From NCBI RefSeq assembly GCF_003841505.1, contig NZ_REGA01000004.1, positions 62,001 to 126,000 of the forward strand: a DNA stretch of 64,000 nt, given 5' to 3'. The notes under the pieces were generated by a model, which did not search any database, was not told the DNA's origin, and was given only the letters and a program-made list of their open reading frames with translations. Positions 6,878 to 13,583 of the stretch are shown here, in pieces; the first letter of the stretch is position 1, and each line of letters starts with the position of its first letter. A program made the position numbers and the translations under genes. This DNA is from Natrarchaeobius chitinivorans (lineage in GTDB: Archaea; Halobacteriota; Halobacteria; Halobacteriales; Natrialbaceae).

Positions 6878-6977
6878 CTATTACCTAGTACCCTCCCAAG
6901 CGTCGACTGCTGAGCGAAATCGGATCACACCGCGTGATTTCGCTCATCAGTTCAGGCTTGGGACGCCACTATAATAG
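6878..6977. repeat. 100-bp nested palindrome, MITE-like
   Basis: The ends CTATTACCTAGTACCCTCCC and its partner GGGACGCCACTATAATAG form imperfect inverted termini. Inside them CCAAGC pairs with GCTTGG, and GAGCGAAATC pairs with GATTTCGCTC (10 bp perfect). The layout resembles a non-autonomous transposable element or an IS end. It overlaps the C-terminus of the truncated transposase reading frame beside it. A related terminus (GTTGGGAGGGTATTATAG) occurs near 34076-34093. Confidence 0.6.
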
Positions 6978-7165
6978 CGGTGATCGGAACGAGCGACAGT
7001 TCCCGGTCGGGCCGGGAGCGGGTCGCGTTCGTGTCCTCGGAGTGCCTTCAGAAGGATACGTGCGCGTGTGTTGTCTTGGGCCCTCCGTTCACCGGTGGAC
7101 GTGAACCATTCGAGCGTCTTGCGATCTTCGTCGCTGAGCTCAACAACGTACTTCTTCGCTCCCAT
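6947..7165 (-). pseudogene. Truncated IS630-type transposase N-terminus
   Basis: The 72-residue frame starts MGAKKYVVELSDEDRKTLEW and continues to DNTRARILLKALRGHER. This resembles the first 45-50 residues of haloarchaeal IS630-family transposases, where a helix-turn-helix begins. After GHER the similarity stops and the frame reads through unrelated sequence and the 100-bp palindrome. The whole DDE catalytic part is missing, so it cannot be an active transposase. It is interpreted as a relic of an insertion. Confidence 0.62.
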
Positions 7166-7318: not shown

Positions 7319-7403
7319 TGATACGGATTACTGTCCCTGTGTACCGACGCACCCGCCGCCCGGGTCGCGGGTGCGCCGGCAAGAACTACAGTAAACCGTA
7401 TGA
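7319..7403. repeat. Dispersed palindrome family A, copy 2
   Basis: TGATACGGATTACTGT at the left pairs with ACAGTAAACCGTATGA at the right; the core CGCACCCGCC-GCCCGGGTCGC-GGGTGCG is a GC-rich hairpin. The ends are nearly complementary over about 16 bp. It stands in a gene-free stretch between the transposase relic and the small ORF at 7611; apart from it, 7166-7610 holds nothing I recognise. Confidence 0.85.
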
Positions 7404-7610
7404 GAGATCGGGTCACGACTCGAGTATCCGCTACTAGACCCCGCCACCCCATTTCACAACATACGAACTTTGTAATACCAATCAAAAATATTCCTTTCAT
7501 ATTCTACAGAGCGCCTCCCCCAGCATCGAAAACAGAATATTCCCCATACTGGGGGACGGTTCGTTCGATATAAACGAACTCCACAAAGTAACCAATCGTT
7601 ATTATTTAAT

Positions 7611-7778: not shown

Positions 7779-7925
7779 CGCACGACGAGCGACGGCACTT
7801 TCTCCGCCCCACCGCTTCCTCCGCCCCACCGCCTCGAGTCTCACCACCTCGAGTCCCACCAGAGGGTATCCGAAACCGCCTCCGGGCCTCGAGTCAGCGA
7901 CCTATTTCCCGGAAGTAACCAGTAG

Positions 7926-7934
7926 TTATAAATA
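7926..7934 (+). promoter_or_regulatory. TATA box TTATAAATA preceding the RNA-like structure
   Basis: TTATAAATA is centred 27 nt before G7957, the first base of the outer stem of the predicted three-way junction, which is the canonical archaeal TATA-to-start distance. On the opposite strand TTTATATC (8061-8068) would give a transcript from about 8038 that also crosses the structure. Confidence 0.35.
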
Positions 7935-7956
7935 ACTCCACGGCGACAATTAACCT

Positions 7957-8020
7957 GGAAGCCATGCTCCCAGGGGGCACGAAATGCCCCGGGTGCTGTA
8001 ACACCCGAGACGTGGCTTCC
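7957..8020. ncRNA. Candidate structured RNA: 64-nt three-way junction
   Basis: An outer 8-bp stem GGAAGCCA (7957-7964) / TGGCTTCC (8013-8020) encloses two hairpins. The first is GGGGCA-CGAAA-TGCCCC at 7974-7990. The second is GGGTG-CTGTAA-CACCC at 7991-8006. All three helices are perfect, which is unlikely for a random 64-mer. Both strands have a TATA box at a fitting distance. On the minus strand a leaderless 48-codon ORF (7894-8040) also runs through it, so a coding explanation is not excluded. It could be an independent small RNA or a relic of a transposon-associated RNA; no homologous family is claimed. Confidence 0.4.
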
Positions 8021-8437
8021 AAGCGGCAACTCGGAGCCATGTTTGCATACCTACTCGCGGGATATAAACGTCTCGCACGGCAGACGAACCGTTCGCCACG
8101 GCCAGCGGCGGCTGTGGACCGACGACAGCGCGATCGAACCCGGCGTTCGCCACGGCGGATGCGCCGCGAACACCGGCGGAGACACTACCGCGAACACGGC
8201 CACCTCCGGCAGGCAACGCCGTGACCTCGCGATGATCGGCCACCGGGGTCCGATCGGACACACCGCGATCTCCCGTTTCGCCGCGTAGCCTCGAGACGCT
8301 GCGCTCGAGTCGCGGCGGCCAGCCGGCGGCCCGACCGACTCGCCGCGTCCACCGACTGATCGAACCCACCCAGGTCGGCCGGGGCGTCGGCCCGCAAACG
8401 GGACTCGAGTCGGTGGTTTTTGAATCGCATTCAGACC
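8021..8437. other. GC-rich stretch without a recognisable gene
   Basis: Several frames are open on both strands (for example minus 8185-8430), but their products are rich in Arg, Ser and Pro without domain features, typical of non-coding high-GC DNA. It may be a decayed gene. The minus strand carries TTTATATC at 8061-8068. Confidence 0.45.
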
Positions 8438-8863: not shown

Positions 8864-8949
8864 TGATACGGATTGCTGTACCGATGTCCTGGCGCACCCG
8901 CCGCCCGGGTCGCGGGTGCGTCGGTAATGACTGACAGTAAACCGTATGA
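8864..8949. repeat. Dispersed palindrome family A, copy 3
   Basis: TGATACGGATTGCTGT pairs with ACAGTAAACCGTATGA, and the core GGCGCACCCGCC...GGGTGCGTCGG forms a hairpin around GCCCGGGTCGC. The core is nearly identical to copy 2, so these two are close relatives. It lies between the small-gene pair and the CoA-transferase gene; nothing else is recognised in 8776-9093. Confidence 0.85.
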
Positions 8950-9093
8950 GTGCCACCCCTCCCGACCATTGCGGTCCGCAGACGGCGTTCTCGAGGACGA
9001 GTGTGGTCCCCAGCGGGCGAACTGCCGTCGGTCATCGCGGTGCAACCGCGATCCGTCCCCGGACCGACCGCCACGCTGGGCCAGCAATCGGTC

Positions 9094-10266
9094 TCAGTCG
9101 TCGGCCGCCGTCTCCGCCCGCTCGCCCAGCAGTTCCTCGCGGTGTTCGTCGAGCAGGGGTGCGCGACCGGTCGGCTCGGGCGGCGTCTCGGTCATCTTGA
9201 TCGGATTGCCCGCGATCTCGACGTCCGCGTCGGCTCCCGGCTGTTCGACGGAGACGAGCATCTCTCGAGCGTGGACGTGGGGGTCCGCGAAGATGTCCGC
9301 GGTGGTCTGGACCGGCGCGGCGGGGACTCGCCCCTCGAGGGTCTCGACGAGGTCGTCGGTCGTCCGGTCGCCGGCCCACGCCGCAATCTCGGCCAGAAGC
9401 GGTTCGCGGTCCTCGAGTCGATCCGCGGGGGTGGGGTAGGCCTCGGCGAGGTCCGGACGCGCCATCGCATCACAGAGCGCATTCCAGTGGTTGGTCCCGA
9501 AGGCGGCGATCACGGCGTAGCCGTCCGCGGTCTCGAAGGCGTCGTACGGAAACAGCGTCGGGTGGGCGTTGCCGCGGCGCGTCGGGGCTTGGCCGGTGTA
9601 GGAGTGCTGGTAGATCGCGCGTTCGGTCAGGCTGATCATCGCGTCGTACATGCCGGTGTCGACGTACTTCCCCTTGCCGGTCCGCTCGCGGTGGTTGAGC
9701 GCCGCGAGGATCCCGATGCAGTTCAGCGTCGCGGTAAAGAGATCGCCGATGCCGGGGCCGACTTTTGTCGGCGGGCCGTCGGCCGGTCCGGTGATCTCCA
9801 TCACGCCGCCGAGCGCCTGCGCGACGAGGTCGAACGACGGCTGGCCCTGCCGGTCGGTCTCGCCCGTCCGGGGGTCGCCGAAACCGCGGATCGAGGAGTA
9901 GATCAGCGACGGATTGTGCGCCGCGAGCGTCTCGTACCCGAGGTCGTACTTCTCCATCGTCCCCGCGCGGTAGTTCTCGACGACGACGTCCGCCTCCTCG
10001 ACCAGCGAGAGGAAGTCCTCGCGGTCGCTCTCCTCGCCGAAGTCGAGTTCGACGCTCCGTTTTCCGCGGTTGATGCTCTGGAAGTACCCCCCGTAGGCTT
10101 CCTCGTCGGCGTCCGCGACGAACGGGGGGTTCGACCGGATGAGGTCGCCCCCAGGCCGCTCGACCTTGACGACGTCCGCGCCCATGTCCGCGAGCAACAT
10201 CGTACAGTACGGACCGGCGAGCACCTGAGTCAGGTCCAACACGCGCAGGTTCGATAGCGCACCCAT
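9094..10266 (-). CDS. mct: Family III CoA transferase, probable mesaconyl-CoA C1-C4 CoA transferase
   Basis: The 390-residue protein is a CaiB/BaiF-type (family III) CoA transferase. It starts LRVLDLTQVLAGPYCTMLLADMG and has VVKVERPGGD at 33-41, NYRAGTMEKYDLGY at 98-111 and the catalytic aspartate D175 in PGIGDLFTAT. Being divergent from the methylaspartate-cycle genes, it most likely moves CoA from the C1 to the C4 carboxyl of mesaconate (Mct). That specific role is inferred from context; the family assignment is firm. Confidence 0.9.
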   Translation of the reverse strand: MGALSNLRVLDLTQVLAGPYCTMLLADMGADVVKVERPGGDLIRSNPPFVADADEEAYGGYFQSINRGKRSVELDFGEESDREDFLSLVEEADVVVENYRAGTMEKYDLGYETLAAHNPSLIYSSIRGFGDPRTGETDRQGQPSFDLVAQALGGVMEITGPADGPPTKVGPGIGDLFTATLNCIGILAALNHRERTGKGKYVDTGMYDAMISLTERAIYQHSYTGQAPTRRGNAHPTLFPYDAFETADGYAVIAAFGTNHWNALCDAMARPDLAEAYPTPADRLEDREPLLAEIAAWAGDRTTDDLVETLEGRVPAAPVQTTADIFADPHVHAREMLVSVEQPGADADVEIAGNPIKMTETPPEPTGRAPLLDEHREELLGERAETAADD

Positions 10267-10416
10267 GGCCCGAGGAACCGGACGCGGCTACAAAACCTTT
10301 ACCAATAATCATTATGTTTGTGGCTGTATGTCAGGGGGTGCCCCTAAACACGATTAAAGAATATTATCATGGAAAATCATTAACTTTATACCCCGCTTCC
10401 ACATGGATCGGGATGC
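10267..10416. promoter_or_regulatory. Divergent promoter of the methylaspartate-cycle genes
   Basis: This 150-bp AT-rich gap separates mct from the glutamate mutase operon. TTTATACC near 10386-10393 lies about 27 nt before the ATG at 10417, so that operon is probably leaderless. The octamer AATCATTA occurs twice in the same orientation, at 10307-10314 and 10375-10382, one near each promoter, and could be a shared regulator site. Confidence 0.5.
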
Positions 10417-10857
10417 ATGTCGAACACGGTCGTTCTCGGCGTGATCGGCTCCGACGCGCACGTCGTCGGAATCACGATCCTCGAGCAGGCGTTCAGCACA
10501 GCAGGCTTCGACGTCGTCAACCTCGGCGTCCAGACCTCGAGAGAGGAGTTCGCCGAGGCCGCAGTCACGCACGAGGCCGACGCCGTACTGGTCTCGTCGC
10601 TGTACGGCCACGCCGAACAGGACTGTCGGGGCTTTCACGAGGTGCTGGCGGAGGCCGACGTGGACGCGGTCACCTACATCGGCGGCAACCTCGCCGTCGG
10701 CCAGGACGACTTCGAGCGCACTCGAGAGACGTTCCGGGCGCTGGGATTCGATCGCGTCTTCGACTCCGAGACCGATCCCGAAGAGGCGATCGCCGCGCTC
10801 CGACGGGACCTCGAGATCACGCCGACGGAAGCCGATCGGCTCACCGTCAGTTCGTAG
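10417..10857 (+). CDS. mamA: Glutamate mutase sigma (B12-binding) subunit
   Basis: The 146-residue protein is the small cobalamin-binding subunit (GlmS/MamA) of glutamate mutase, which isomerises L-glutamate to (2S,3S)-3-methylaspartate. The B12 signature is clear: D13-x-H15-x-x-G18 (H15 ligating cobalt), SLYG at 61-64 and the GGN loop at 89-91. Its stop TAG directly abuts the ATG of the epsilon subunit. First gene of a five-gene operon. Confidence 0.96.
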   Translation: MSNTVVLGVIGSDAHVVGITILEQAFSTAGFDVVNLGVQTSREEFAEAAVTHEADAVLVSSLYGHAEQDCRGFHEVLAEADVDAVTYIGGNLAVGQDDFERTRETFRALGFDRVFDSETDPEEAIAALRRDLEITPTEADRLTVSS

Positions 10858-12297
10858 ATGAGACGAGACGAACGCATTCCGTCCGACGAGCTTCGGCGTA
10901 TCGACGAGGAGATCCGGGAGAGCTGGCCGACGGGATCGGCCGTCGACTTCGAGGACGCCGTCGCTTACCACGACTCGCTCCCGGCTCACAAGCGCTTCGC
11001 GGACGTCCTCGAGTCGGCCGACGAACCGCTCTTGCAGCCGCGAGCGGGCGTCCCCCGACTCGACGACCAGATCGAACTCCTCGCGGCCCTCCACGAGGAC
11101 GGGGAGGCCGATCTGTTGCCGACGACGATCGACTCCTACACCCGCGATAACGCCTACGAGAAGGCACAGGAGGGACTCGAGACGGCCCGGGAAACCGGCG
11201 ACGACGCGCTCAACGGCTTTCCCGCCGTCAACCACGGGGTCGAGGGCTGTCGGGAACTGATCGACGCGGTCGACGCCCCGGTGGAAGTGCGCCACGGCAC
11301 GCCGGACGCCCGACTGCTCGCGGCGATCACGTTCGCGGGGGGCTTCCAGAGCTTCGAGGGCGGGCCGATATCCTACAACATCCCCTACACGAACTGCCAC
11401 GGCCTCGCGGAGACGATCGAGAACTGGCAGTTCGTCGACCGACTCGCGGGCGCGTACACCGAACGCGGCGTCCGGATCAACCGCGAGCCGTTCGGTCCGC
11501 TGACCGGCACCCTCGTCCCGCCGTCGATCGCCATCACGATCATGCTGATCGAGGGGCTGCTCGCGGCGACCCAGGGCGTGCGTTCGATCACGCTCGGCTA
11601 CGGCCAGGTCGGCAACGTCGTCCAGGACGTCGCCGCCCTGCGGGCGCTGCGGGAACTCGGCGAGGAGTACCTCCCCGACGCGGTCGTCGTCACGACCGTC
11701 TTTCACGAGTGGATGGGCGGCTTTCCGCCGGACGAAGCCCGTGCGAACGGCGTCATCGGCCTCGGCGGACTGACCGCGGCGATCGCTCGCCCGGATAAGG
11801 TCATCACCAAATCACCACAGGAGTTCCAGGGCGTGCCCACCACGGAAGCCAACGCCGCCGGACTCCGCACGACGAGACAGGTCATCGATATGGCAATCGA
11901 ACAGGAGATCGACATCGACGGAATCGACGAGGAACAGGACCTGATCGAGCGCGAAACGCACAGCCTGATAGAGGCCGTATTCGATCGTGGCGACGGCGAC
12001 CTCGTCCGAGGAACCCTCGAGGCCTTCGACTCGGGCGCACTCGACGTCCCGTTCGCACCGAGCGACAGCGCGAAGGGGGCCGTCCTCCCGGCTCGAGACG
12101 ACGACGGCCGCGTCCGGATCCTCGAGTGGGGCGACCTCGCGGTCGACGACGAGATCAGGGCGATCCACCGGGCACGACTGGCAAAACGCGCCGACACGGA
12201 AGGGCGCGACCAGTCGTTCCGGATGGTCGCCGACGACGTGGACGCGATCAGCGAGGGCAAACTCATCGGCCGACCGGACACGCGGGGTGACGTCTGA
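10858..12297 (+). CDS. mamB: Glutamate mutase epsilon (catalytic) subunit
   Basis: The 479-residue protein is the catalytic GlmE/MamB subunit, a TIM-barrel partner of the B12-binding subunit. Family features include PRAGVPRLDDQIELLAAL near residue 60, PTTIDSYTRDNAYEKAQEG, FPAVNHGVEGCREL, the RHGTPDARLLA active-site block (about 145-155), and the GGFQSFEGGPISYNIPYTN stretch. The first 20 residues are an acidic haloarchaeal leader. Stop and next start overlap as TGATG, indicating translational coupling with mal. Confidence 0.96.
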   Translation: MRRDERIPSDELRRIDEEIRESWPTGSAVDFEDAVAYHDSLPAHKRFADVLESADEPLLQPRAGVPRLDDQIELLAALHEDGEADLLPTTIDSYTRDNAYEKAQEGLETARETGDDALNGFPAVNHGVEGCRELIDAVDAPVEVRHGTPDARLLAAITFAGGFQSFEGGPISYNIPYTNCHGLAETIENWQFVDRLAGAYTERGVRINREPFGPLTGTLVPPSIAITIMLIEGLLAATQGVRSITLGYGQVGNVVQDVAALRALRELGEEYLPDAVVVTTVFHEWMGGFPPDEARANGVIGLGGLTAAIARPDKVITKSPQEFQGVPTTEANAAGLRTTRQVIDMAIEQEIDIDGIDEEQDLIERETHSLIEAVFDRGDGDLVRGTLEAFDSGALDVPFAPSDSAKGAVLPARDDDGRVRILEWGDLAVDDEIRAIHRARLAKRADTEGRDQSFRMVADDVDAISEGKLIGRPDTRGDV

Positions 12298-13583
12298 TGG
12301 AGATTACGGACGTTCACACGACGCCCGGCTACGCCGGCTTCTTCGCCGACGACCAGCGGGCCATCAAACGCGGCGCGGAGTCCGATGGGTTCGCCTACGA
12401 GGGCGATCCCGTCACCGCTGGCTTCGACGAGATTCGCCAGGCGGGCGAGGCGCTCGTCGTCGACCTCGAACTCGAGGACGGCTCCGTCGTGAGAGGCGAT
12501 TGCGCCGCGGTCCAGTACTCGGGTGCCGCCGGCCGCGATCCGCTCTTTCGGGCGAACGAGGCCGCGCCCGTCGTGGCCGGCCCCGTCGCCGACGAACTCC
12601 GCGGGCGGGACGCGGCGGCGTTCCTCGAGAACGCCGAGGCCGTCGAAGACCTGCGACCCGACGGCGATCGGCTCCACACGGCGATCCGGTACGGCGTCTC
12701 GCAGGCGCTACTCGCCGCGGCCGCTCGAGCACGGCGGACGACCCGGACGGACGTGCTTGCCGACGCGCTCGGAACCGACCCCGCGACGGACACGGTCCCC
12801 GTCTTCGGCCAGTCGGGAGACGACCGCTACGCGAACGCCGAGAAGATGATGCTCAAGGGCGTCCCGGTGCTTCCCCACGGGCTGATCAACAGCGCCGAGA
12901 AGCTCGGACCGGACGGCGACGGCTTGCTCGAGTACGTCGCGTGGCTTGCGAGGCGCGCCAGGGAACTCGGACCCGGTGGCTACGAGCCACGATTTCACGT
13001 CGACGTCTACGGCACCATCGGCGACCGGTTCGGCCCGCCGTACGACCGGTCGGCGGTGATCGACTACTGCTACGCCCTCGAGGAGGCGGCCGTTCCGTTC
13101 GGACTCCAGATCGAGGGACCGATGGACGCCGGCGGTCGTGCCGAACAGATCGACGCGATGGGCGAACTCCGAGACGGGCTTCGAGATGCTGGCGTCGACG
13201 TCGATATCGTCGCCGACGAGTGGTGTAACACCGCGGCGGACGTCCGGGCGTTCGTCGACGCGGAGGCGGCCGATCTCGTGCAGGTCAAGACGCCCGACCT
13301 CGGCGGCATCCACCGGAGCGGACGGGCAGTCCGGTACTGTAAGGGAACCGAGACGCAAGCGTATCTCGGCGGTACCTGCAACGAGACCGAAACGTCCGCT
13401 CGCGCCTGCGCTCACCTCGCGCTCGCGACCGACGCCGCCCAGGTGCTCGCGAAACCCGGGATGGGCTTCGACGAGGGCTACATGATCGTCGAAAACGAGA
13501 TGCGGCGGACGGTCGCCCGGAGAGCGCGTCGCCAGCGACCGACCGACGTTGACGACACCCAGGAGATGACTGCGGATGACTGA
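12297..13583 (+). CDS. mal: Methylaspartate ammonia-lyase
   Basis: The 428-residue enolase-superfamily enzyme eliminates ammonia from 3-methylaspartate to give mesaconate. The catalytic pair known for clostridial MAL falls at the same numbering: H194 (LPHGLI) and K331 (VQVKTPDLGG). Metal ligands E273 (LQIEGP) and D307 (IVADEW) are present, with a further Asp in FHVDVYG. It overlaps glmE by one base and mch by eight. The C-terminus is a short basic/acidic tail. Confidence 0.97.
   Translation: MEITDVHTTPGYAGFFADDQRAIKRGAESDGFAYEGDPVTAGFDEIRQAGEALVVDLELEDGSVVRGDCAAVQYSGAAGRDPLFRANEAAPVVAGPVADELRGRDAAAFLENAEAVEDLRPDGDRLHTAIRYGVSQALLAAAARARRTTRTDVLADALGTDPATDTVPVFGQSGDDRYANAEKMMLKGVPVLPHGLINSAEKLGPDGDGLLEYVAWLARRARELGPGGYEPRFHVDVYGTIGDRFGPPYDRSAVIDYCYALEEAAVPFGLQIEGPMDAGGRAEQIDAMGELRDGLRDAGVDVDIVADEWCNTAADVRAFVDAEAADLVQVKTPDLGGIHRSGRAVRYCKGTETQAYLGGTCNETETSARACAHLALATDAAQVLAKPGMGFDEGYMIVENEMRRTVARRARRQRPTDVDDTQEMTADD

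Follow-up and report, generated by a model that had tools for sequence, protein, structure and literature searches.

A 2021 paper gives the fluoride switch of Thermococcus kodakarensis as the only natural archaeal riboswitch that has been determined experimentally (PMC8241225). The described systems closest to the locus considered here are the translational riboswitches (the bacterial classes and a synthetic theophylline switch in Haloferax volcanii, PMC8241225), the archaeal ribosomal-protein leaders (PMC7247131), the genes for the C(P)XCG zinc-finger micro-proteins of Hfx. volcanii, which are small Cys-motif proteins mostly without an assigned function (PMC11241148), and gene pairs subject to termination–reinitiation at an ATGA-type stop/start overlap (PMC6728339). 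Here we describe a leader RNA of Halobacteriales that matches no Rfam family and for which we found no earlier description. One copy occupies positions 7957–8041 of the stretch of Natrarchaeobius chitinivorans DNA that we analysed (64,000 nt, hereafter the window), and on the basis of modelled structures we consider it probable that this copy acts as a two-state translational switch. Its structure and strand, the two competing pairings, the association with genes and the ATGA-type overlap were computed here.

Like the translational riboswitches, the leader has a folded 5′-leader domain and a switching strand that is predicted to join either of two mutually exclusive helices, the start codon being masked in one of them. 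Unlike them it is homologous to no Rfam riboswitch, its ligand is hypothetical, it masks the AUG and not a clear SD, it feeds a uORF coupled by an ATGA/GTGA overlap, and it is dispersed, with up to at least 24 copies per genome. The archaeal ribosomal-protein leaders (PMC7247131) are likewise structured cis leaders with a possible protein effector; in contrast, the leader described here has many paralogous copies and the genes behind it encode zinc ribbon, SWIM or PadR proteins instead of ribosomal ones. The leader-linked proteins resemble the C(P)XCG micro-proteins in being small haloarchaeal proteins with Cys motifs, but their genes have a common RNA leader and a coupled uORF, and none of the representatives scanned scored above any Pfam or NCBIfam cut-off. 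Finally, the leader loci share the ATGA-type overlap of the termination–reinitiation pairs, whereas the upstream partner is here a short uORF whose start lies within a structured leader.

A preliminary description of the window had proposed a three-helix RNA at 7957–8020 on the plus strand. Folding bears this out: the minimum free energy is −38.4 kcal/mol (z = −6.3, equalled by 0 of 200 shuffles), and the minus strand of the same segment folds less strongly (z = −4.8). The predicted optimum depends on the length folded. The segment 7957–8020 gives the junction and the longer stretch 7930–8050 gives a fold that masks the AUG, which makes the three-way junction one of two competing structures. 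The parts of the window copy are as follows.

7926–7934, plus strand: TATA box of the putative leader promoter (TTATAAATA); the TATA begins 30 nt before 7957.
7957–8020, plus strand: leader RNA in predicted state A, a three-way junction with the AUG free (fold z = −6.3; family covariation, 0/500 shuffles).
7957–7966, plus strand: 5′ arm of the outer stem, pairing with 8011–8020 (G·U/A·C counts of helix 1).
7967–7969/8007–8009, plus strand: short CUC/GAG helix, from folding.
7974–7990 (stem 7974–7979/7985–7990), plus strand: hairpin GGGGCA-CGAAA-UGCCCC, its 3′ half almost invariant (GAAAUGCCCC).
7991–8006 (stem 7991–7995/8002–8006), plus strand: hairpin GGGUG-CUGUAA-CACCC, its loop closed by a conserved pair of the wobble type, either C..A or U..G.
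8011–8020, plus strand: 3′ arm, the putative switching strand, complementary to both 7957–7966 and the pre-AUG segment.
8009–8043, plus strand: leader RNA in predicted state B, a hairpin masking the uORF start codon; predicted optimum for 7930–8050 and for the window leader.
8039–8224, plus strand: uORF of 61 codons (MFAYLLAGYKRLARQTNRS...), whose start codon is kept in nearly all copies.
8058–8075, plus strand: hairpin CGGGAU-AUAAAC-GUCUCG within the uORF, with A-U/G-C exchanges and an excess of G·U on the plus strand.
8221–8224, plus strand: uORF stop overlapping a GTG (GTGA), read from the sequence.
8221–8337, plus strand: position of the coupled zinc-ribbon gene in other copies; the window has no open Cys-motif ORF here.

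The leader is a dispersed family. A blast search gave 17 matches in the window's own genome (G000) and at least one match in 40 of 100 relatives, and a pattern scan of named genomes yielded 66 stretches, all in genera that we take to be Natrialbaceae. With a covariance model trained on 68 sequences we found 20 matches each in G000 and G001, nine in G003 and four in G002, and 17 of those in G000 score at least 99 bits; the model detected the leader in 83 of the 121 Natrialbaceae genomes, several of which carry at least 24 matches each. Three weak matches in G000 (C3:250009, C31:19177 and C16:9955; 35–43 bits), behind which no zinc ORF was detected, may be decayed copies or chance hits. Further families of the Halobacteriales contain weaker matches that are built in the same way; about a dozen of them cluster on contig C7 of genome G229, possibly a plasmid. 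Six of the 148 genomes in a phylum-wide sample matched the model. All six are Halobacteriales and none was found outside that order in this sample, which argues against spurious matching. The viral and phage collections yielded no copies, and the plasmid copies lie in stretches that the collection's gene table leaves unannotated. The flanks of paralogous copies are unrelated to one another. At several loci, orthology between sister species extends over as much as kilobases. As the preliminary description had suspected, the RNA belongs to no named class: searching Rfam 15 with the window and 14 other loci gave 0 matches at the gathering threshold, the sub-threshold hits having E values of 1.5 and 6.3.

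The structure is supported by compensatory changes between homologues, the kind of evidence that the preliminary description had asked for. Among 90 aligned copies, 92.8% of the cells are paired, and double-changed cells number 124 against 49.6 expected by shuffling, a level reached by 0 of 500 shuffles on all five measures, the shuffles being uncorrected for kinship. The leader thus has a folded core with covariation support, as a riboswitch does. In helix 1, the outer stem, the 90 sequences contain 65 G·U cells and 3 A·C cells when read on the plus strand, and in helix 6 (the hairpin at 8058–8075, one pair of which is AU in 50 copies and GC in 29) the counts are 31 and 9. The stem of the GGGUG-N6-CACCC hairpin is invariant in 88 rows and its loop is variable, yet the ends of the six-nucleotide loop are C..A in 55 copies and U..G in 21 and never C..G or U..A (17.2 and 14.3 expected). 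C·A+ and U·G are isosteric wobble pairs, so the loop ends appear to be constrained by a precise RNA fold. Helix 5 is paired in only 71.8% of cells in the model-fitted alignment, with more A·C (61) than G·U (16), a pattern that we attribute to misalignment, this hairpin being variable. An RNA on the minus strand is rejected by the G·U/A·C asymmetry of helices 1 and 6, by the spacing of the TATA box and by the direction of the ORFs. In copies compared by eye, a minus-strand reading frame across the core, as in the ORF 7894–8040, does not seem to persist from one copy to the next, because the indels are not divisible by three. The second TATA box that had been placed on that strand (TTTATATC, the complement of 8061–8068) is there in its letters; since it is the reverse complement of the conserved plus-strand hairpin 8058–8075, there is no reason to call a promoter, and we regard it as a coincidence of sequence.

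On the plus strand the TATA box has the correct spacing: it begins 30 nt ahead of the 5′ arm in the window and in 91 of 111 family copies, and lies between −45 and −22 in 102 of the 111. A TATA-like stretch of its own precedes the downstream zinc ORF in only 1 of 90 cases. We infer from this distribution that the leader is most likely transcribed together with the uORF and the zinc ORF. In nearly every copy the leader, lying 5′ of a co-oriented start codon as a translational riboswitch does, is followed by a GCC-AUG that opens a short basic uORF (e.g. MIAYILPGYKRPAR...) whose stop codon overlaps, in an ATGA/GTGA-type arrangement, the first codon of a small acidic Cys-motif protein. Of the 105 copies that could be analysed, 90 have a Cys-motif ORF beginning no more than 12 nt from the uORF stop, and in 71 of these the overlap is exactly −1 (ATGA-type). 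Two protein types recur, CPxCGxPV..VT..GP......PCGC and CxRC...RVIxLSxEPCxEL..RY..CPDCxAxIGMLEF, and the representatives scanned matched no toxin family. Searching G000 with both protein profiles gave 16 strong ORFs, all 16 with a leader; conversely, 16 of the 17 strong leaders have a zinc ORF behind them. The RNA is in these cases a leader before a conserved start codon and a small zinc-protein gene, and not the free-standing small RNA first suggested.

The gene partner varies beyond the Natrialbaceae. In Haladaptatus the leader lies immediately 5′ of SWIM zinc-finger genes, annotated as such in public plasmids; in G229 it is followed by a uORF of 23–24 codons and a zinc ribbon ORF. Other families have it before further Cys-motif ORFs, some of which continue in frame from an N-terminal part resembling a uORF (..GFKRPDR.., ..GYKHPAR..). 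Behind a few divergent leaders (L188, L192 and L195) the gene has no obvious zinc motif, and the leader at L188 1501–1666 stands directly 5′ of a PadR-family regulator (PF03551, E 6e-16), so the association with zinc proteins does not hold throughout. The downstream proteins thus comprise several unrelated zinc families and once PadR. Two of them (L034 and L050) carry a stretch resembling HalOD1, the Halobacterial output domain, before the CPxCG..PCGC ribbon (E 0.004 in L034, below the cut-off).

The window copy is the sole exception in its genome, a strong leader without a zinc ORF; its GTG frame overlapping the uORF stop closes after four codons. Related copies in G001 (L010) and G003 (L027) likewise lack a zinc ORF, and in all three species the RNA is intact (125 bits) and has its TATA box. 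Homology between the window and L010 is confined to 7920–8337 (74%), with unrelated flanks beyond. Between the window uORF and those of L010 and L027 there are indels of 3 and 15 nt, and past codon 17 the substitutions are spread evenly over the codon positions (13/13/14 and similar), giving no sign of selection on the uORF protein; we therefore rejected the uORF as a conserved protein. A stretch with vague similarity to a zinc ORF (LAMIGHRGPIGHTAISRFAA) is absent from L010 and L027 and has no Cys, and we do not claim it as a remnant. From these sequences we read the window copy as a solo leader that has retained its uORF and whose zinc gene has decayed or been lost.

The surroundings of the window copy contain a palindromic repeat of about 85 bp (ATACGGATT..GCGCACCCGCCGCCCGGGTCGCGGGTGCG..ACAGTAAACCGTAT) on both sides of the leader, at 7322–7406 and about 8866–8950, with at least 40 copies in the genome at 88–100% identity. 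A short minus-strand ORF at 6947–7165 (MGAKKYVVELSDEDRKTLEWF..), which had no Pfam match, resembles the N-terminus of an IS630-type transposase and is probably the IS relic mentioned in the preliminary description. Pfam matches at 9094–13583 identify a methylaspartate-cycle cluster (CoA-transferase family III, B12-binding mutase subunit, MutE and methylaspartate ammonia-lyase).

Two competing pairings of the same strand underlie the proposed switch. The 3′ arm (GUGGCUUCC) has two complements, the 5′ arm (GGAAGCCAC) and the stretch that runs up to and into the AUG (GGAAGCC-AUG). Within Natrialbaceae the match of the 3′ arm to the pre-AUG segment is 6.45 against 6.20 when cross-shuffled (0/300, uncorrected for kinship). 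In a more stringent comparison across 24 representatives of divergent lineages, the match is 6.83 against 5.27 for the 3′ arm with the pre-AUG segment and 8.79 against 6.94 for the 3′ arm with the 5′ arm (0/1000 each, again without correction for kinship). The sequences themselves differ, as in Haladaptatus (GGAAGACC/GGUCUUCC/GAAGACC-AUG) and in one Natrialbaceae group (GGAAACC/GGUUUC/GAAACC-AUG), and both pairings are retained between lineages despite these differences. Constrained folding of 111 copies, with standard 37 °C parameters and not those of molar KCl, gave mean energies of −47.03 kcal/mol for the junction and −46.90 kcal/mol for the AUG-masked state, a difference of 0.13; the median difference is 0.2 and the standard deviation 4.6 kcal/mol, with the two states within 3 kcal/mol of each other in only 49% of copies. 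State B pairs at least one base of the AUG in 85% of the 111 copies. The masking hairpin itself shows no strand preference (58 versus 50 copies), and it was rejected as a terminator as no U-tract follows it. As computed, then, the leader has the mutually exclusive helices of a riboswitch, one of them masking the initiation region.

In the mechanism that we infer, transcription would start at or just 5′ of the outer stem, as the TATA spacing suggests. In state A the 3′ and 5′ arms would pair, the three-way junction would form and the AUG of the uORF would be free; in state B the 3′ arm would instead pair with the segment just 5′ of the AUG and mask it, turning off both the uORF and the zinc ORF. 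A factor that recognises the junction core, be it a ligand, a metal or a protein, would favour state A and turn translation on, the direction being a guess. In most copies, ribosomes finishing the uORF may re-initiate at the overlapping start codon of the zinc protein, and the switch would thereby control that protein. Two findings in Hfx. volcanii make each of these steps plausible: coupling of the ATGA type proved strict in 13 of the 14 pairs tested there and in E. coli (PMC6728339), and a synthetic switch masking the SD and the AUG is functional (PMC8241225).

The factor could be a protein throughout. A host RNA-binding protein or the zinc protein itself would then bind the junction and block or allow initiation, with no small-molecule ligand, a scheme that amounts to the switch with a protein effector and whose probability overlaps with that of the preferred explanation; we hold it to be possible rather than probable. 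The genes encode small, possibly nucleic-acid-binding zinc proteins, and the archaeal ribosomal-protein leaders offer a precedent (PMC7247131). Against this, a common RNA core stands before proteins of unrelated zinc families and once before PadR, which makes autoregulation by each product unlikely; binding of the leader by a common trans-acting protein is possible. We think it improbable that the leader is static or a uORF-type attenuator, its structure merely insulating or stabilising the mRNA, with the second occurrence of the arm, ahead of the AUG, being incidental. The conserved uORF start, the stable hairpins and the wide scatter of energies among copies would agree with this, but in divergent lineages the arm repeated ahead of the AUG changes in step with the 3′ arm (0/1000).

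Slightly less likely again is a free-standing, trans-acting small RNA processed from the leader, with the window copy, its zinc gene gone, acting in this way only. The solo copies, with RNA and TATA box intact in three species and, for the window and L010, unrelated flanks beyond 7920–8337, lend themselves to this reading, yet nearly all copies lie in cis before a start codon. A transposon-derived element, whether a MITE or the omega/reRNA of an IS200/IS605 element (the guide-type RNA of the preliminary description), would suit the dispersed copies, the IS relic nearby and the occurrence of the window-type unit at unrelated sites, but is very improbable given that the repeated unit is leader plus gene, that several loci are orthologous over up to kilobases, that no copies were found in the viral or phage collections, and that the adjacent partner is a zinc ORF in 16 of 17 cases in G000, while the four plasmid copies checked have no annotated transposase within about 2.5 kb.

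Returning to the two-state switch, we tentatively suggest that the family is a natural riboswitch class of Halobacteriales that masks start codons, reaches 24 or more copies in some genomes, and might sense a metal or another signal to set a regulon of small zinc proteins through the coupled uORF. The leader family runs to hundreds of copies and shows strong covariation, its predicted platform of two states is readable, and its gene partner is constant. Whether haloarchaea have natural RNA switches can thereby be tested directly with reporter systems that already exist. The plasmid records that we checked list the small zinc proteins as hypothetical, and the leader groups many of them into what may be one regulon.
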